DNA of 64,000 nt from a virus. Below the pieces are notes generated by a model. That model saw nothing but the letters and a program-made list of their open reading frames with translations, had not been told where the DNA came from and did not search any database. The translations under genes and the position numbers were made by a program. This document shows positions 33,307 to 43,670 of this stretch, piece after piece (the first letter of the stretch is position 1; each line of letters starts with the position of its first letter). Where the stretch lies: positions 62,001 to 126,000 of the IMG/VR virus record IMGVR_UViG_3300022562_001814. One strand, 5' to 3'.

Positions 33307-36117
33307 ATGGCTAATCTTCCTGCCGGCGCATCTACACTACCTGGCGTTACAACTGATATTATTACGCAGACGGCCGGGGTCTCAGTTCCAGGTGGCACAC
33401 GCTTAGCGCTTTTGGTTGGTACTGGTGCAAGAACAGAGGTTGTTGTTGCTTCTGCAGTAGGTAATGGTAATGATGGATTAAATTCTGAATACACATCTAC
33501 TACTGGTAGAGATAGTCGACACTTCGTACTTAAAAATGCCCCTATAGTTTCCAATCGCACACAGCTTTTTAAAAATGGGCTTCCACTTGTTGGTATTGAA
33601 AGCACTCTCCCTGATTCTAATTCTTTTGATAATAGATATGATTATCGAATCGATATTGCAAATGGAAGAATAGAATTACAAACAGCTTATATTATCGATC
33701 AAGGCGGCTCGCTCTATTCTATTGGTTCTACAAATGTTGGGTTAGGTAATTTAGATGGTTATGGTGGTCCCACATTAGATGATGAAAATGCTCCAACAGA
33801 AACATGGACCATTAAATGCATTTCGGTACAACGTAATAGTTTAAATCAACCCGTACAAGATACGGCAAAATTTATTGCTTTTGGTTCTGTTTCAGGGGTT
33901 AAACTAAATTCTTCAGGCAGCCCTATTGTATGGGTAGCTAATGGACAATTAGTAAGTAACGGTATAATTAGTTTCGCTATTAATGAAACTAAATCTATGA
34001 GCACATCAGTTTCACCTTTCAGGGAGGGTGATTATTTCACTTTACAAGTTAAAGGTGGTGCTCTTAGTCGTAATGATTCGTTAACTGCTACATATATATC
34101 TGTAGCTGATATTAATGATCCTGAATTTTTTACTTCGGCAGATGAATTAGTTGCTAAACACGGTTCGCCAAGTACTGAAAATACTCTTTCATTAGGTGCT
34201 CAGTTAGCATTTTCTAATAGTCCACCAGGCGTTTATGCTTTGCAAGCTAAACCGCCACTTCCACGTAGAACTTCAATTAATTTGGTATCAAGTTTTGATG
34301 CAACATCTACGGATGTAGATGATTTCGTGGTTCCGTTACCTTTAGGAGTAATGCCTGATTTAGATACTGATATTCACTTTTTTGTTACTGATCCTACAAC
34401 AAAAGTTGAAACACAACTTCTACCAAATAAATGGGATTTCTATACTTTAGATACTGCAGGAAATCCAACTACAGACGCTTTTGTGTTTGATGATGTAGAC
34501 CCTCCTGGCGGCTACTCATTCTCATATTCTGTTAATCAAAGTGATGCGGTACTTAATTTTGGTAATGACGGTTATTTAAACAGAAGCCTAACTTCATCGG
34601 TTTTAGGCACTTTTAGTGTTGATGGCACCACATTTACTTCATCATATGTTGGTAAGAAATTAAAGATATTTGATTCAGTTAATTTGGCAAATAGTGGTAC
34701 TTGGGACGTTATCGGTGTTACCGATGGTGAATTAAATATTCAAGCTACCGGTACAACTCCATTTGATGCTTTCGTTACTGATGCTGCCAATGTTGATTTC
34801 TATCTTTTAAATCCAGTTACTGGATTAACTGTTGCATTAAGTACGGCAACAGATGGTTATATAGCTCCACTTGCCGGTATTCAAGCCACGTTTGGAAGCT
34901 TAAGTATTGATTTTACAACATTAGCGGCTGGAGAAGGACTACCGTTAACAATAGCTGGATTAAAATTAGTTGTAACAGATTCGACTACGGCTACAAATAT
35001 CGGAACTTTTGATATTATTTCTGATAGCGGTGGAGGAGCCATTGTTATTTCGAAATCATTTGTAAGCGAACATGATCTTGATTACGAAGTATTAGATACT
35101 TCAAGTACTAGCAGTTATATCGTATTAAATCATAATATTGTGCCAGATGGTAATTCATTACGCATAACATTAATTGATGAGCGTGATGCTGACTTCTATG
35201 ATGCTGGTTGGATAGCAGCTCTTGAAAAATTGGAAACAATTGAAGTTGATATATTGGTTCCGCTACCAACACAAACGCCTTCAATTATTTTCCAAAATTT
35301 CTTAAATCATTGTATTACAATGAGCAATTTAAGAAATAAGAGAGAGCGTGTACTATTTACCGGAGCAATTCAAGGATTAGCGCCTGAAAATCTAACAGGA
35401 GCCGAGCCTGCTGCCGTAGAAGATATTGGTATTCTTGAAGGTATTCAAGGTGATAATATCAGTGAAATTTTGGCTGGTAATACCGAAGATTTAACCAACT
35501 ATTCGGTTGCTGATGGATTCGGGCATACGTTTAGAGCAATGTATTTTTGGCCTGATGAAATTGTTGCTGTGGTTGGTGGAGAAAACACAATTATTGATGG
35601 TTTCTATATTGCTGCTGCAGCCGCAGGGCTTGTATCTGGTACAGCCAATATTGCAATGCCACTAACTCAAAAAGTAATTAGTGGATTTAATATTCTTCGT
35701 GATAAAACACTTTCGGTTACAACTATGGAACAATTGGCTGCTGCAGGTGTAACTGTACTACAACCGGTTGCTGGTGGTGGAAGAGTTATCTGGGGCAAGA
35801 CAACAACGCAAAGCGGTTTCCCAGAAGAAGAAGAAATGTCGATCGTCTTTATTAGAGATCGTATTGCTAAGTCTTTACGTACTGGCTTTGCAGGATTTAT
35901 TGGAATTCCTGAAGATCCAGATGTTATTCCAATGTTAACAACTAGGGCGGTTGGATTATTAAATGCATTTATTGCTCAAAATATAATCACAGACTTTGCT
36001 AGCTTGGTAGTTAGACGTGACTCTGTAGATCCAAGACAATGGAATATTAGTGTGAAAGTGCAGCCTAACTATCCTGTCAATTTCATTTTCATAAGAGTTG
36101 GAATCGGCACGATATAA
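33307..36117 (+). CDS. Contractile tail sheath protein
   Basis: A 936-residue protein with AAGGA before the ATG. The N-terminus (LPGVTTDIITQTAGVSVPGG) and C-terminus are typical of the Phage_tail_sheath family; the C-terminus has FIRDRIAKSLRTGFAGFIG, LNAFIAQNIITDFASLVVRRD and the closing YPVNFIFIRVGIGTI. It contracts around the tube to drive injection. It is longer than the T4 sheath (659 residues). The extra length lies in the middle (about 130-620), made of beta-rich domains that contain three DGY and would decorate the outside of the tail. It is followed by endonuclease genes before the tube gene. Confidence 0.9.
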   Translation: MANLPAGASTLPGVTTDIITQTAGVSVPGGTRLALLVGTGARTEVVVASAVGNGNDGLNSEYTSTTGRDSRHFVLKNAPIVSNRTQLFKNGLPLVGIESTLPDSNSFDNRYDYRIDIANGRIELQTAYIIDQGGSLYSIGSTNVGLGNLDGYGGPTLDDENAPTETWTIKCISVQRNSLNQPVQDTAKFIAFGSVSGVKLNSSGSPIVWVANGQLVSNGIISFAINETKSMSTSVSPFREGDYFTLQVKGGALSRNDSLTATYISVADINDPEFFTSADELVAKHGSPSTENTLSLGAQLAFSNSPPGVYALQAKPPLPRRTSINLVSSFDATSTDVDDFVVPLPLGVMPDLDTDIHFFVTDPTTKVETQLLPNKWDFYTLDTAGNPTTDAFVFDDVDPPGGYSFSYSVNQSDAVLNFGNDGYLNRSLTSSVLGTFSVDGTTFTSSYVGKKLKIFDSVNLANSGTWDVIGVTDGELNIQATGTTPFDAFVTDAANVDFYLLNPVTGLTVALSTATDGYIAPLAGIQATFGSLSIDFTTLAAGEGLPLTIAGLKLVVTDSTTATNIGTFDIISDSGGGAIVISKSFVSEHDLDYEVLDTSSTSSYIVLNHNIVPDGNSLRITLIDERDADFYDAGWIAALEKLETIEVDILVPLPTQTPSIIFQNFLNHCITMSNLRNKRERVLFTGAIQGLAPENLTGAEPAAVEDIGILEGIQGDNISEILAGNTEDLTNYSVADGFGHTFRAMYFWPDEIVAVVGGENTIIDGFYIAAAAAGLVSGTANIAMPLTQKVISGFNILRDKTLSVTTMEQLAAAGVTVLQPVAGGGRVIWGKTTTQSGFPEEEEMSIVFIRDRIAKSLRTGFAGFIGIPEDPDVIPMLTTRAVGLLNAFIAQNIITDFASLVVRRDSVDPRQWNISVKVQPNYPVNFIFIRVGIGTI

Positions 36118-36479: not shown

Positions 36480-37409
36480 ATGAAAGTTTGTTCTAAATGT
36501 AAGTTATCTAAACCATTAGATTCCTTTTCAGTTAAAAATAAGACTAATGTAATTAAATATAATTCTTGGTGTAAATCTTGTTTCAACATATATCAAAAAA
36601 ATAAGCGAAGTAATAAATGTAAAATTACAATATATAATGATGAATTTCTTAATAAAGTATTAGTGTTATTTAATCAAGGGTTGGGAAAAGTAAAAATAAG
36701 TAGAATATTAAACGTGCATCCTTGTAAAATTAATAGGGCTTATATTAAATTAGGGATCAAAAACAGTTATCTAACAAAAAATAAAAATAACACTAGAAAA
36801 ACGCACCTAATAACAGAAAAATATTGCAAATTATGTGAGAAAACTATTCCTATTGAAAATTTTTTCTTCTACATTGATAAATGTGGCAGAAAGAGAATTA
36901 AATTCATATGTAAATTTCATCAAAAAATTAAAGATAAAATAAGATTAAAATTAAGATATGAAAAATTAAAAAATACTTTAAAATTTAAAAAATCTCGTAA
37001 CCAATATATTAAAAATAAATATAAAACTGATATTAATTTTAGATTAAAATCAAATATATCAAAATTATTAAATAAATATTTAAAACGTAATTGTAAAAAG
37101 AAGGCTGGAAATACTTGTCAAAACCTTTTAGGATATTCTATCGCACAATTAAAAAATCATTTAGAAAATTTATTTGAGTCCTGGATGAATTGGAGTAATT
37201 GGGGTAAATATAATGCTAAAATTTGGGATGATAACGATCCTTCTACTTGGACCTGGCAGATTGATCACATTGTTCCCCAATCAGATTTGCCATCATTAAT
37301 TATTGGTGATGATAATTTTAAAAAATGTTGGGCATTAGAAAATTTAAGACCATATTCCGCTAAACTAAATTTTTTAGACGGCGTTTATAGGATAAGGCAT
37401 AAAAAGTAA
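36480..37409 (+). CDS. HNH homing endonuclease
   Basis: A 309-residue protein. The N-terminus is a zinc-finger-like CSKCKLSKPLDSF with WCKSCF; a helix-turn-helix stretch follows at 55-100 (FLNKVLVLFNQGLGKVKIS). A second CKLCEKTIPIENF follows, then a lysine-rich linker and the C-terminal HNH domain with WQIDHIVPQSDLP, DDNFKKCWALENLRP and SAKLNF. The HNH domain closely resembles that of the enzyme at 42951-43670. It sits between the sheath and tube genes and is less GC-rich than both. It is expected to cut phage DNA lacking the insertion. Confidence 0.85.
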   Translation: MKVCSKCKLSKPLDSFSVKNKTNVIKYNSWCKSCFNIYQKNKRSNKCKITIYNDEFLNKVLVLFNQGLGKVKISRILNVHPCKINRAYIKLGIKNSYLTKNKNNTRKTHLITEKYCKLCEKTIPIENFFFYIDKCGRKRIKFICKFHQKIKDKIRLKLRYEKLKNTLKFKKSRNQYIKNKYKTDINFRLKSNISKLLNKYLKRNCKKKAGNTCQNLLGYSIAQLKNHLENLFESWMNWSNWGKYNAKIWDDNDPSTWTWQIDHIVPQSDLPSLIIGDDNFKKCWALENLRPYSAKLNFLDGVYRIRHKK

Positions 37410-37456: not shown

Positions 37457-38107
37457 ATGCCTCTTCTGACGCCCCAAACCAAAAGTATCATCGAGAACCC
37501 AAATGGTAGCAATAGAACCGGTACGGCTCTTTCTACTCATATTGTAATTCGTGTTGGTCCCAACCCAGTTGGCGCTGTTCAAAGTATAGAAATTAGAGAA
37601 GAAAGAACTGTAACCCCTGTTGATGAAGTTGGTACAGATGGTCATATTGATAGTGCTCCAACCCGGTCTACAAATATTTCTGGAAATTGTCGTAGAATTC
37701 GTTATGATCGTATTCGTGTTGCCGAAGCATTTAGTCGTGGCTTCTTACATGCAAAATCACAACGTATTCCATTTAATATAGATATTTATGACAAATGGAA
37801 TGGTGACGGCGCAGATAGTATGATTGTTACCACAATTAAAAATGTATGGATAACTGGAATTGATTATTCATATACTGCTGATAACTGGATTATTACAGAT
37901 AATATGTCATGGATGGCAGAAGATATTGGCAGTACTATTCAAGGCGGACCGGCTACGGCAGGTCTTGGTGGTCCACGCGCTCTAACGTTACAAACTGATG
38001 TCGAAGGAATTGAACAACGTGCTGATCGTGGTATGTTACGCGGCGCCCTTGACTCTTCATTCAGCCCAAGTACCGGACTTATAAATAGTATCTTTGGGGG
38101 CTTTTAA
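37457..38107 (+). CDS. Tail tube protein
   Basis: A 216-residue protein with AAAGGA before the ATG. The size and pattern fit the T4 gp19-like tube family, which stacks as hexamers under the sheath: STHIVIRVGPNPVGAVQSIE near the start, ISGNCRRIRYDRIRVAEAF, then IYDKWNGDG and IKNVWITGIDYSYTADNWI. It lies after the sheath as expected, separated by homing endonuclease genes. The codon choice is rich in CGT, as in the capsid gene. Confidence 0.85.
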   Translation: MPLLTPQTKSIIENPNGSNRTGTALSTHIVIRVGPNPVGAVQSIEIREERTVTPVDEVGTDGHIDSAPTRSTNISGNCRRIRYDRIRVAEAFSRGFLHAKSQRIPFNIDIYDKWNGDGADSMIVTTIKNVWITGIDYSYTADNWIITDNMSWMAEDIGSTIQGGPATAGLGGPRALTLQTDVEGIEQRADRGMLRGALDSSFSPSTGLINSIFGGF

Positions 38108-38138: not shown

Positions 38139-38888
38139 ATGCATTATCTGTATAAGATCACAAATTTAGTCAATAATAAAATTTATATTGGACAAACTGT
38201 ACAGCCAAATAAGCGTTGGTGGCAGCATCGATTTGAAGCTGCCAATCCAACTAAAGTAATACATTATGCCATTAATAAATACGGTGCTCATAATTTTGTT
38301 TTTGAAGTTATAGCTATGTCAAAAACAAAAAATGACGCCAATATTATTGAGATAGAGTTGATACGACAATATCAATCACATGTTTCCACTGGGTTAGGAT
38401 ATAATAATGCCATTGGTGGTAATAGTAATTCTGGATATCATCACTCCGAAGAAACTAGAAGAAAAATATCCAAAGCTAATAAAGGACAAAAACAAACACC
38501 AGAACAAAAAAAATTATTATTTGAAGGGTTAGCGAAGTGGGTAGAAGAAAATGGACCGCCACATAAAGGCAAAAAACATACCAAAGAAAGTAAACAAAAA
38601 ATGTCAGAAAGCCATAAAGGTTATTCTGCCTGGAATAAAGGTTTGATTGATTGTTTTTCAGAAGAAACGCGTCAAAAAATGGCTAATGCCAAAAGAGGTA
38701 AAAAAGCCTCCGAAGAGACTAAAAGAAAAATGTCAATATCTCGCACCAAAAACCGAAAATGTAGTATTGAAGATTGTGATAACCCGCATGACGCAAAAGG
38801 ATATTGTTCCAAACATTATTATCAATATATAGATAGAGAACAAGTAAAAAAAAGAAAAAAGCGTTACTACGAACGTCATAAACGTTAA
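38139..38888 (+). CDS. GIY-YIG homing endonuclease with C-terminal zinc finger
   Basis: A 249-residue protein. HYLYKITN and KIYIGQT form the GIY-YIG pair in residues 1-25; the domain runs to about 95. NUMOD3 repeats follow (HSEETRRKISKANKG, HTKESKQKMSESHKG, FSEETRQKMANAKRG, SEETKRKMS). A small zinc finger lies near the end (CSIEDCDNPHDAKGYCSKHY). It separates the tube gene from the tail-chaperone gene. The catalytic signature residues appear intact. Confidence 0.9.
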   Translation: MHYLYKITNLVNNKIYIGQTVQPNKRWWQHRFEAANPTKVIHYAINKYGAHNFVFEVIAMSKTKNDANIIEIELIRQYQSHVSTGLGYNNAIGGNSNSGYHHSEETRRKISKANKGQKQTPEQKKLLFEGLAKWVEENGPPHKGKKHTKESKQKMSESHKGYSAWNKGLIDCFSEETRQKMANAKRGKKASEETKRKMSISRTKNRKCSIEDCDNPHDAKGYCSKHYYQYIDREQVKKRKKRYYERHKR

Positions 38889-38949: not shown

Positions 38950-39558
38950 ATGTCTTCATCATTTTATAAAAAAACAGCAGAACCACAAACTAAATTACGA
39001 GAATTTAATGTGGGAGATCCGGATGAAATGCCATCTATACCTGTAACTCAACCAACTTATTTACAAAATTCACAGGGATATGAATTATCTCCTGCCGAAA
39101 GAGATGAATTACAAAAATTAAGACAAGAAACAATAGCTAATAAAAATAAAGTAGGTGGTCATGCCAAACAAAGAATTGAATTATTAGCCAATATTGGTAG
39201 ATTATTCAAAGACGTTGAAATTGATGGTATTGTTTTCTCATTACGTACTTTAAAAGCTAAAGAGTCAAGAGAAGCAATGCTTTCTATATTTAAATGTACA
39301 AATGATGCTGATGCAGCTTTTGAAATTAGACGTCAAACTCTAGCTCGAGCCATTTTTAAAATAGATGGACAAGACATTGAGTCTACATTAGGTGGGGCGG
39401 ATTTTGATCTTAAATTGGGTTTGGTCGATGATATGGAAGAAACAATTATAACCAAATTATATAATGAATTCAATGAATTGAGGCACGAAGTTGGCGTTAA
39501 ATACGGTATTGAAAGCGAAACTCAAGCAAAGGAGGTTGCTGAAGATCTAAAAAAATAG
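38950..39558 (+). CDS. Tail assembly chaperone, G-type product
   Basis: A 202-residue product ending at TAG 39556-39558, lying just before the tape measure. The sequence has a disordered start, helical GHAKQRIELLANIGRLFKDVEI and a compact region (IFKIDGQDIESTLGGADFDL). In many long-tailed phages this position encodes the G protein, which binds the tape measure and, with a -1 frameshifted G-T product, helps polymerise the tube. The 3' end has AAAGGAGG (39528-39535) and A-AAA-AAA (39549-39555) exactly in frame, just before the stop. Confidence 0.8.
   Translation: MSSSFYKKTAEPQTKLREFNVGDPDEMPSIPVTQPTYLQNSQGYELSPAERDELQKLRQETIANKNKVGGHAKQRIELLANIGRLFKDVEIDGIVFSLRTLKAKESREAMLSIFKCTNDADAAFEIRRQTLARAIFKIDGQDIESTLGGADFDLKLGLVDDMEETIITKLYNEFNELRHEVGVKYGIESETQAKEVAEDLKK
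39528..39558 (+). promoter_or_regulatory. Programmed -1 frameshift site
   Basis: Seven A's at 39549-39555 fall in the zero frame as A-AAA-AAA, followed by the stop TAG. An SD-like AAAGGAGG ends 13 bases upstream of the slippery run, as in bacterial dnaX-type sites. After a -1 slip, reading continues from ATA at 39555 in the frame that stays open to 39893. Confidence 0.85.
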
Positions 39559-39893
39559 TTAAGGAGCCGGATCATAGGTTTTTATGGTATCTATGTAAGA
39601 CTTTTAAGAAATTTCCAGATGATCCTGAATTAGAGGACATGGATCCGGTTACCAAAATGTATATGTTCCATCATTGGTTAGAAGATACTAACGAGCAAGT
39701 TGAATTAGCCAAATATCATGGCTATTTAATAGGTTCGTTTACTAATCCAGAAGCAGTTAAACAAATGATTGGTGGAAATACTATTTCTGCCTCTGAAGAA
39801 GATTTTGAAGAAACTTCTAAATGGATTACAGAAGATATTAAGCAAGAAAGCCACCCCCCCAAACGACGTCGACGTAAACGAAAAATTATTTAA
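39555..39893 (+). CDS. Tail chaperone T-part, reached by -1 frameshift
   Basis: An open frame of 112 residues in the -1 frame of the gene before it, giving a predicted fused product of about 314 residues. It begins IVKEPDHRFLWYLCKTF, has an acidic helical part (HHWLEDTNEQVELAKYHGY) and ends with a very basic KRRRRKRKII. An internal ATG at 39639 exists but has no good SD, while the 28 codons before it are also coding in character. This argues for translation by frameshifting. Its stop is followed after 7 bases by the tape-measure ATG. Confidence 0.8.
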   Translation: MVKEPDHRFLWYLCKTFKKFPDDPELEDMDPVTKMYMFHHWLEDTNEQVELAKYHGYLIGSFTNPEAVKQMIGGNTISASEEDFEETSKWITEDIKQESHPPKRRRRKRKII

Positions 39894-39900
39894 GGTTTAA

Positions 39901-42051
39901 ATGGGCGATCTTACTATTGAACAACTTAAACAGTTAGAAATACAATTAAAAGAAAATGCAAAACAGACAGAAATAAATACTTCTAAAATTAGAAGTTTTT
40001 TTGATTCGGCCAGTGAGGCGATAAAACAATATGGAGTAAAGTTTAAAGAAGCTGAAAAAAATATGAGCAGTTGGTCACTTAGTTCTAATAAAGATTTCGA
40101 TAAATTTGCTAATGGGCTTAATAAAACCATGACGTTAATGAGTAATTTTAAACCATTTGAAAATTTAAAATTAGAAGGTAGTTCCGCTATTAATACTATG
40201 AGTAATAAATTTGATGCTCTAGCAACTAAAATGGGCGGTATAACAAATGTTGCCACCGCATTAGGTGGAAAATACGCCCAAGCTTTATCAATGGGTGGTG
40301 AAAAAGCGGTAAAACAATTATTAGATCAGTCTAGTCAGGCAGAAATATTAGAACATAATTTGTTGGGTGTGATAAAAATGAGCGGAGAACTTGGAAAATA
40401 CCAAAAACAAATGGGTGATAACTACGAAAATTTAAATAAATTAACCGCAGATTTTGGTGCTGCTATGAATAATTCGGCAAAAGCTACCGGGTATAGTGTT
40501 GAACAAGTTACTCAATGGGCTATGTCTGCTAAACATATTCGTGGTTTTCTCGATCATACGGTTGAGGGATTAGGTAAATTCGGTGAAGGAATGTCAGCAA
40601 TGACGGCGGCTATTCAGTTATCTCGTAGTTCATCACAAGATATGAGTATTGTTTTAGGTACTCTAGTAAAAGCTTATGAAGATTTAGGTAATGCACAGGG
40701 ACCAGTAACGGATGGAGTTGAAAAAGGTCTGCACATGTTCAGTTTAATGCAAGAAGCTACTGATAAATTGGGTATTAGATTTGAAGATACTCAAGGATAT
40801 TTAACTCATGTTGCTGATGCTTTTAAATTTATTGGTGATAATACCCAGGGCGCCACTAATATATTAGCCAGATTTAGTGGGGCTTTGCAAAATACTGGAT
40901 TAACTGCCAAAGCCTCTGTAGATATTATACAAGGAATGGTTGATTCTGTTAATAGTTTGAGTATTGGTACTAAAGCGCTAATATCTCAACGCACAGGTGG
41001 TCCGGGTGGATTACAAGGCGCATTCCAAATAGAAAATTTATTAAGACAGGGTAAGGTAGATGAAGTTGCCAAAAAAATGGAGCAAACACTTCGCCAACAA
41101 TTTGGTGGTAAAATTTATAGCTTAGAAGAAGCTGCAAGAAGCCCTCAAGCTGCTTCTCAATTTATGCGCCAACGTGAATTATTAAAAAGTGGAGCCTTTG
41201 GCGGATTAGCTAAAACCGATGAAACTGCTAATAGATTATTAGAAGCTTTGTCTAAAGGTCCAACAGAAACCGCCAATGCATTAAAAAGTGCTGATGAAGC
41301 ATTAAAAGACAATGTTGCTGAAGGAACAAAATTAACTGAAAGGACTAATACAATATTAGATGATATGAATACTTCTATAGCTAGAGGCGTTATTATTCAA
41401 GAGCAGCAATTATTATTAGAAGCAAGATCAATTATCGGAACGGGAAAAAATGAAAAAGGTGAAGAATCTGCCTATGCTCAAGAATTAATAAAATCTTTGG
41501 AAGATACTGTTGCCAGAGACGTTGATCGTATGCGGCATAATAAACAGGGCGGTCCTCCAGAATTCAAGCAACTTTTGGCTACTGAAAATAGGGCGGCGGC
41601 CGGCGGATTTGGTAGATCTGTTGGGGCAGCTCCAGAAATATTTAATCGTTCGGCTAATTTAGTAAAAGATTATTTGCTTGGGGCAAGTGAATTGGTTGGT
41701 GGTAGTTATGGCAAAAATGTATCCGCAGAGGAAGCAACAAGGCAAAAAACATTAAATAATATTAAATTAGAGCAAGAACGTTCTCAAAGAGCCGCCGAAA
41801 GAGGTGCAAGAGAGATGGCTGCAAGAGCTATGAGACAACGACCAGCTAATTTAGCTGCTCATCTACCTAATTTAGAAACAACAAAACACGAAGTTGAAGT
41901 AAAACCAATTAAAGTTGATGTAACTGTTAATAATAATAATCCAACAGCAGATGTTCAAGTAAAGGTACGAGAAACAGAATCTGTAAATAAAACAACTAGC
42001 CGTACAGTTAATACAGGTGGGGTTAATACACGTATTAACCCAGGATACTAA
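39901..42051 (+). CDS. Tape measure protein
   Basis: A 716-residue protein with AAGGT before the ATG. It is mainly helical, with a long first part of Lys/Glu/Gln-rich coiled coil, a central Gly/Ala-rich region (LGGKYAQALSMGGEKAVKQL) and a conserved-looking segment at about 280-370 (FKFIGDNTQGATNILARFSG). The tail is Gln/Arg-rich and ends in a Val/Thr-rich part. It sets tail length; at the usual ~1.5 angstrom per residue the tail would be on the order of 100 nm. It directly follows the frameshifting chaperone. Confidence 0.82.
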   Translation: MGDLTIEQLKQLEIQLKENAKQTEINTSKIRSFFDSASEAIKQYGVKFKEAEKNMSSWSLSSNKDFDKFANGLNKTMTLMSNFKPFENLKLEGSSAINTMSNKFDALATKMGGITNVATALGGKYAQALSMGGEKAVKQLLDQSSQAEILEHNLLGVIKMSGELGKYQKQMGDNYENLNKLTADFGAAMNNSAKATGYSVEQVTQWAMSAKHIRGFLDHTVEGLGKFGEGMSAMTAAIQLSRSSSQDMSIVLGTLVKAYEDLGNAQGPVTDGVEKGLHMFSLMQEATDKLGIRFEDTQGYLTHVADAFKFIGDNTQGATNILARFSGALQNTGLTAKASVDIIQGMVDSVNSLSIGTKALISQRTGGPGGLQGAFQIENLLRQGKVDEVAKKMEQTLRQQFGGKIYSLEEAARSPQAASQFMRQRELLKSGAFGGLAKTDETANRLLEALSKGPTETANALKSADEALKDNVAEGTKLTERTNTILDDMNTSIARGVIIQEQQLLLEARSIIGTGKNEKGEESAYAQELIKSLEDTVARDVDRMRHNKQGGPPEFKQLLATENRAAAGGFGRSVGAAPEIFNRSANLVKDYLLGASELVGGSYGKNVSAEEATRQKTLNNIKLEQERSQRAAERGAREMAARAMRQRPANLAAHLPNLETTKHEVEVKPIKVDVTVNNNNPTADVQVKVRETESVNKTTSRTVNTGGVNTRINPGY

Positions 42052-42950: not shown

Positions 42951-43670
42951 ATGAAAGAAGAATTAAAATATTGTAAATATTGTGACAGTATGCAAATATC
43001 AAATACATTTCGTTACTTAAAATGTAGTAAATGTGTGAAATTACAAAAAAATAAAGTTTATACAATATATTATAAAAATAATAAGAAAAAAATACTTCAA
43101 GTTCGGAAAAAATACTGTGAAAATAATTCAGAAAAAATAAAATCATATTATGAAAAAAATAAAACTATTATACTTATAAAGAAAAAAATATATAAACAAA
43201 AAAATGCGGAAGCCATATCGATATATAATAAAAAATATAAAGAAAAAAATAGAGAAAAAATTAATAAACAAAGACAAGAGCGTTATCATAAAGATGTTTT
43301 TTATAGATTAAGAAATATAATATCTACTACCATTAGAAGTTATTTATATTCAAATAAAAGTAATAATTCTATTTATAATTATTTACCGTTCACAATACAA
43401 GAATTAAAACAACATTTAGAATCTCAATTTGAATCTTGGATGACGTGGGAAAATTATGGAAGATATAATATTAAAAATTGGAATGATAATGACTCTTCTA
43501 CTTGGACCTGGAATATAGATCATATAATTCCACAATCTAAGTTACCTTATATATCTATGGAAGATGATAATTTTAAACAATGCTGGTCACTCAATAATTT
43601 ACGCCCATTAAGTGCGAAACAAAATTTTATTGATGGAGTTACTTTAATACGTCATATAAAAGAGAAATAA
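42951..43670 (+). CDS. HNH homing endonuclease
   Basis: A 239-residue protein. An N-terminal zinc-finger-like pair (YCKYCDSM, LKCSKC), a lysine-rich helical linker (30-120) and a C-terminal HNH domain with WNIDHIIPQSKLP, DDNFKQCWSLNNLRP and SAKQNF. It is paralogous to 36480-37409, most clearly in the HNH part (both have NDxSTWTWxIDHI). The gene starts 2 bases after one structural gene and ends directly before the hub ATG. It is noticeably richer in A and Lys than its neighbours. Confidence 0.87.
   Translation: MKEELKYCKYCDSMQISNTFRYLKCSKCVKLQKNKVYTIYYKNNKKKILQVRKKYCENNSEKIKSYYEKNKTIILIKKKIYKQKNAEAISIYNKKYKEKNREKINKQRQERYHKDVFYRLRNIISTTIRSYLYSNKSNNSIYNYLPFTIQELKQHLESQFESWMTWENYGRYNIKNWNDNDSSTWTWNIDHIIPQSKLPYISMEDDNFKQCWSLNNLRPLSAKQNFIDGVTLIRHIKEK

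Follow-up and report, generated by a model that had tools for sequence, protein, structure and literature searches.

A conserved slip site and a selected internal Shine-Dalgarno sequence point to -1 frameshifting in the tail assembly chaperone gene of uncultured phages

Results

The tail assembly chaperone gene of an uncultured phage is probably decoded by lambda G/GT-type -1 frameshifting with stimulators resembling those of dnaX and insertion sequences (IS), a reading to which we assign a probability of roughly 0.93. The gene lies in a window of 64,000 nucleotides (the whole stretch of DNA that was analysed), part of an IMG/VR record of 200,737 bp. An earlier note on this DNA had read it as a frameshifted tail assembly chaperone, and that reading is well supported by the comparisons described here.

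Slip site and frame layout

The 3' end of the zero frame reads ACT CAA GCA AAG GAG GTT GCT GAA GAT CTA AAA AAA TAG. The gene and its signals are arranged as follows.

38950..39558, + strand: open zero frame of 202 aa, predicted tail assembly chaperone, short form (the role of lambda gpG)
39528..39535, + strand: internal Shine-Dalgarno (SD) sequence AAAGGAGG, separated by a 13-nt spacer from the slip site, proposed -1 frameshift stimulator
39540..39542, + strand: TGA in the -1 frame, between the SD and the slip site
39549..39555, + strand: slippery heptamer A_AAA_AAA, read directly and kept in relatives
39556..39558, + strand: zero-frame stop codon TAG adjoining the heptamer, read directly
39549..39893, + strand: -1 frame extension (predicted T domain), an open frame with a coding signature, 112 codons past the slip

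Since a -1-frame TGA lies upstream and the zero-frame TAG downstream, the frame change would be confined to 39543-39558. The predicted GT-like fusion has 202 + 112 = 314 residues with DLKKIVKEPDHR at the junction of the two frames, and the first ATG of the -1 frame is found at 39639. The genes of the window include 14 in-phase copies of A_AAA_AAA in 16,812 codons; only the copy at 39549 touches a stop codon, and only this copy has GGAGG just upstream.

The observed layout is confirmed by direct reading. The placement of A-AAA-AAA and TAG at the end of the zero frame (39549-39558), as given in the earlier note, is exact to the base, and the SD-like sequence that it reported 13 bases before the A-run is AAAGGAGG. 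The note described that sequence as rare; a single copy occurs on the + strand of the whole window. The -1 frame is open to 39893, in agreement with the 112 codons and the fusion of about 314 residues that had been predicted.

Conservation of the slip site in relatives

Relatives were drawn from IMG/VR and one contig of a metagenome-assembled genome (MAG). The first set comprised 92 loci in 75 distinct contexts and the second 80 loci in 66 contexts, 13 of them new with respect to the first. The second set was seeded with a motif of the -1 frame, some 60 codons in, a position that makes the seed neutral to the SD and the slip site. Together the sets include 172 loci, but as many of these are the same contigs, the 88 distinct contexts are the count to use.

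A_AAA_AAA was found at the equivalent position in 92/92 loci of the first set, 80/80 of the second and 88/88 distinct contexts. In all 88 the length of the run is seven A's without exception, and its phase is A_AAA_AAA. The zero-frame stop codon of the relatives (TAA or TAG) adjoins the heptamer or follows one codon later, after a serine codon (TCG or TCA), and their -1 frame is open for approximately 110-125 codons. The first relative, L003, keeps the SD, the spacer, the heptamer and both frames at about 46% identity in the zero frame and about 58% in the -1 frame.

The earlier note had proposed a comparison of relatives for the heptamer, the upstream SD and the -1 frame, and had named as contrary evidence relatives that lack both the A-run and an open -1 frame. 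All 88 contexts keep the heptamer and a -1 frame that is open from the slip site. The upstream SD is usually present at 13 nt but is missing in some lineages.

Selection on the internal Shine-Dalgarno sequence

Across 69 relatives, the energy of the SD-antiSD duplex with 16S rRNA is strongest 10-13 nt ahead of the heptamer. Among 59 loci or clusters that were retrieved without using the SD peptide, GGAGG occurs in 30, GAGG in 37 and some SD 4-mer in 51, while GGAGG occurs in 9 of 12,410 background windows. The glutamate codon within the SD is GAG in a ratio of 51:5, compared to 375:945 in the rest of these genes (p 9e-22), and the lysine codon at the SD is AAG in a ratio of 33:14 against a background of 216:596 (p 2e-9); these p-values are overstated, because the counts use 90%-identity clusters and not phylogenetic independence, but the contrast is very large in spite of this. 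The glutamate codon nine nucleotides beyond the SD exhibits the opposite preference (2:50).

Could the SD be a by-product of a conserved AKEV peptide, with no role in shifting, while the frameshift itself is real? The peptide AKEV[AIV] is itself common at the site, and some relatives that keep the A-run are missing the SD. The extreme synonymous choice of GAG and AAG argues against a by-product, as does the persistence of GGAGG where the residues differ, e.g. in AQEV and AEEV, and we regard this explanation as improbable. Not every lineage keeps a strong internal SD: L185, L190 and L203, for example, have none, and in L218 it is weak or absent, so that it appears to be a favoured but replaceable part that is dispensable within the family. 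The SD is common but not universal in the relatives, and the codon bias at it indicates strong selection.

A review gives 9-14 nt as the spacing at which an SD stimulates -1 shifts (PMC5009743), and the 13 nt found here falls within this range. The dnaX-like stimulator suggested in the earlier note is consistent with the strong synonymous-codon selection at 13 nt, is missing in some lineages, and may act causally in those that keep it.

Probable translation of the -1 frame ahead of its first ATG

In the stretch that separates the slip site from Met31, the nucleotide diversity of the relatives at the three codon positions of the -1 frame is 0.32/0.26/0.54, the pattern expected from a coding frame. 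Conserved -1-frame residues include KKI..EPDHRF..LC..PDDP. These positions and residues precede Met31 and bear out the earlier impression that the codons before the first -1-frame ATG look coding.

In a different reading the -1 frame would be initiated separately, either as an 84-aa product from the ATG at 39639 or from an earlier near-cognate codon, with AAAGGAGG as the start signal. The first -1-frame ATG is indeed commonly found at this position (codon 31 in 33/67 relatives, codon 32 in 10/67), and a stand-alone relative of 89 aa is recorded in BFVD, maybe by automatic annotation only. A single SD of IS911 is described as serving both frameshifting and AUU initiation (PMC4066793 reference 32; PMC5009743). 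Against separate initiation, the first ATGs lack an SD (mean -1.2 kcal/mol, 1/67 at or below -5), compared to SD energies of -4 to -7 kcal/mol at gene starts in the same loci. The residues before Met31 are conserved and carry a coding signature. A -1-frame TGA 9 nt before the A-run, present in the window and at the equivalent position in 32/67 relatives, places a stop between the SD and the slip site in half of them, and the first possible -1 start codon after the slip is ATA or ATC, 19 nt from the SD. Nor would separate genes need a conserved heptamer in a conserved phase. We therefore consider separate initiation very improbable and retain frameshifting from the heptamer.

RNA structure downstream of the slip site

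The window includes one candidate 3' stimulator past the heptamer.

39562..39583, + strand: weak hairpin (39562-39568 pairing with 39577-39583), 6 nt past the heptamer

Its minimum free energy (MFE) is -6.1 kcal/mol, and 18 of 200 shuffles were as good; the hairpins of L003 (-10.8) and L006 (-17.1) are stronger. Across the group, the MFE of positions +7 to +75 is below that of synonymous redraws (z -10.6) and of within-column synonymous swaps (z -7.6), while the control windows +40 to +100 and +100 to +160 gave z -0.5 and -1.8 against the column swap. Ninety-four percent of the members are below their own expected downstream MFE. These folding predictions describe an RNA past the slip site that is more structured than coding requires, a feature that the earlier note missed. 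A dnaX-type signal would have a stable stem-loop 5-9 nt downstream. The relatives show a group-wide excess of structure over +7 to +80, although RNAalifold and a codon-controlled pairing scan found no single conserved stem. SD strength and downstream structure exhibit no compensation (rho 0.04).

The fusion could also arise by transcriptional slippage, in which an extra A in some mRNAs is followed by ordinary translation. A-runs can make the polymerase slip, and AAAAAAA is under-represented in all frames of E. coli, possibly for this reason (PMC4066793). Transcriptional slippage usually needs longer runs, 9 A's in the cases cited (PMC5009743), and would be marked by a run of variable length, typically at least nine; seven A's in a fixed phase in all 88 contexts, together with a selected SD at 13 nt and a selected downstream structure of which it gives no account, leave this origin of the fusion hardly credible.

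Protein identity and the tail operon

The chaperone gene lies within a tail operon, directly upstream of the putative tape measure gene. Its neighbours are listed below.

33307..36117, + strand: tail sheath of a contractile tail (phrog_2839, E 3.8e-13)
37457..38107, + strand: putative tail tube, by position and a weak match to the virion structural family phrog_985
38139-38888, between the putative tube and chaperone genes: GIY-YIG homing endonuclease (phrog_314)
39901..42051, + strand: putative tape measure protein of 716 aa, by position only

The sheath gene indicates that the phage is a myovirus, and baseplate genes follow downstream, to 58883, as in a contractile-tail operon. The tape measure had been said to follow the frameshift immediately. 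A gene does start at 39901, but searches of its product found no informative family match and its identity as a tape measure, given by position and synteny with phage G, is putative. Frames 36480-37409 and 42951-43670 look by eye like HNH-type endonucleases, and L003 is without a GIY-YIG gene at the equivalent junction of tube and chaperone.

The two halves were searched independently against PHROG. The T half matches the tail assembly chaperone families phrog_25000, phrog_4988 and phrog_9001 weakly, and relatives of the G half (64 of them aligned for the zero-frame protein) match phrog_2992, phrog_2792 and phrog_344, likewise tail assembly chaperones and likewise weak. Profile searches placed the window's own zero-frame protein below threshold against the chaperone families, and only its relatives match. 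The AlphaFold2 models have a pLDDT of 86 for the zero-frame protein and 74 for the T half. In Foldseek the zero-frame model matches Gp181/Gp182 of phage G and other tail assembly chaperones, and the fold matches of the T-half model are weak. Pfam gave nothing for either half and the PDB folds nothing significant. The individual matches are weak and it is their agreement that carries weight, suggesting that both halves are related to tail assembly chaperones.

In tblastn, the G halves of three members matched no isolate phage, and for the T half the only matches were weak ones to two SPO1-like Bacillus phages. In Bacillus phage vB_BsuM-Goe26 (L004:3634-4435) the reading frame of the T-half relative is shifted by +1 (or -2) from that of the gene upstream, so a different direction of frameshifting is possible there; AAGGAG lies near the junction, and each part carries its own annotation as a hypothetical protein. 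BFVD lists a T relative (A0A6J5RQE7, 89 aa) and a G relative (A0A6J5RW74, 227 aa) from uncultured phages as separate uncharacterized proteins, which suggests that automatic annotation misses the frameshift.

Comparison with known systems

Bacillus phage G (JN638751) offers a close comparison. Its gp181 and gp182 are both annotated as tail assembly chaperone, gp182 is a joined CDS, and gp183, the 'tapemeasure', follows directly. Both halves are homologous to the window proteins by fold and profile (probability 96.6% for the G half and 93.3% for the T half), and the alignment of the T half to the C-terminal part of gp182 begins at the same KK. The phage G slip site, A_AAA_AAC, is followed at once by TAG, and its -1 product begins with KK. 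Differences include the last base of the slippery sequence (C, whereas it is A here), a zero-frame protein of 115 aa as opposed to 202 aa, and a longer T part in phage G; at approximately 20% identity the proteins are remote relatives. Phage G has a weak AAAGGA 12 nt upstream of its slip site, compared to the stronger SD here, and for this reason the arrangement of SD and slip site may be older and wider than the present group.

The position of the shift resembles that of lambda gpG/gpGT, where -1 frameshifting takes place toward the end of a small gene that lies between those for the tube and the tape measure. The lambda slip site is G_GGA_AAG and is not known to have an internal SD. Xu, Hendrix and Duda reportedly described a conserved tail-gene frameshift of tailed phages in 2004. 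In lambda-type tail-gene frameshifting the extended product is the minor one, and the roles of G and GT have been reviewed (PMC5009743).

E. coli dnaX has a three-part design of A-rich heptamer, upstream SD and downstream structure that the site here resembles, with a candidate 3' stimulator as its third part, but dnaX is a cellular gene in which the shift leads to a shorter product, and its heptamer is A_AAA_AAG as opposed to A_AAA_AAA. A search of 39450-39750 against Rfam, up to E = 5, gave no dnaX or other frameshift-element match and nothing relevant. IS911 and the IS3 family combine an A-rich heptamer, an internal SD and downstream structure with a longer fusion product, and 56% of IS elements are estimated to carry an SD (PMC5009743). 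Their proteins are different, and IS911 also initiates at AUU in the -1 frame, a codon with no equivalent here.

A pattern scan for SD+A7+TMG gave at least 119 matches; among those listed, 8 had the right frame layout and 7 of the 8 belong to this family. In an unrelated candidate phage chaperone with DUF1799 (L052:730-1125, IMGVR_UViG_3300022204_000009), AAAGGAGG lies 13 nt ahead of A7 and the -1 frame is open, which we read as an independent case of the same signal. Its occurrence in an unrelated gene makes it probable that the design extends beyond this family.

Discussion

Frameshifting in tail chaperones is well documented, and dnaX and IS elements provide known cases of -1 shifts stimulated by an SD. 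A literature search that missed many subscription papers found no paper on an internal SD as a stimulator in a tail chaperone gene.

In the mechanism that we propose, most ribosomes would read 38950-39558 and release the 202-aa chaperone in the role of gpG. While a ribosome reads the A-run, the AAAGGAGG that it has just passed would pair with the 16S rRNA anti-SD. The strain of this pairing, the RNA structure ahead and the stop codon next in line would together allow slippage, with two tRNA-Lys moving in tandem from AAA AAA to the overlapping -1 AAA AAA. Ribosomes that slip would bypass TAG and add the 112 residues of the T role. If the two forms work as in lambda, the short one may coat the tape measure and the extension may recruit tube subunits.

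The phage encodes a bS21-like protein outside the window, in a 138-aa frame (L219:1369-1785; G000:C1:3350-3508) that matches PF01165 over the cut-off. In Bacteroidia bS21 governs access to the anti-SD, which the cellular bS21 hides, and Bacteroidota ribosomes ignore SDs. A chaperone of this family is carried by L218 (JAIXLO010000160.1), a 383-kb contig assigned to a Chitinophagales MAG; the contig probably represents a provirus or a phage genome of very large size. The phage bS21 and this relative raise the worry of a Bacteroidota host that ignores SDs. SDs are present at gene starts in the window and in the relatives, which suggests that the hosts use SD pairing and weakens the worry. The strength of the internal SD and the use of SDs at start sites were not correlated (rho 0.15, p 0.28). 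Phage bS21 genes have been described (PMC9723584), and a link between the phage bS21 and the internal SD would be speculative.

One wider reading, which we consider unlikely, is that in this uncultured group, many of whose genomes are very large, A_AAA_AAA is fixed and the efficiency of shifting is set mainly by a swappable SD and by lineage-specific structure. If this is true, the ratio of long to short chaperone could be unusually high and dependent on the state of the anti-SD.

The codon pattern suggests that SD-stimulated -1 frameshifting is under strong selection in the tail assembly chaperones of a large group of uncultured phages. The finding also corrects annotation, as a gene caller that begins the -1 part at its first ATG would give it as a separate small protein. 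With a slip site that is fixed, an SD that varies and a structure that varies, the relatives form a comparative set that may reveal what tunes the level of frameshifting.
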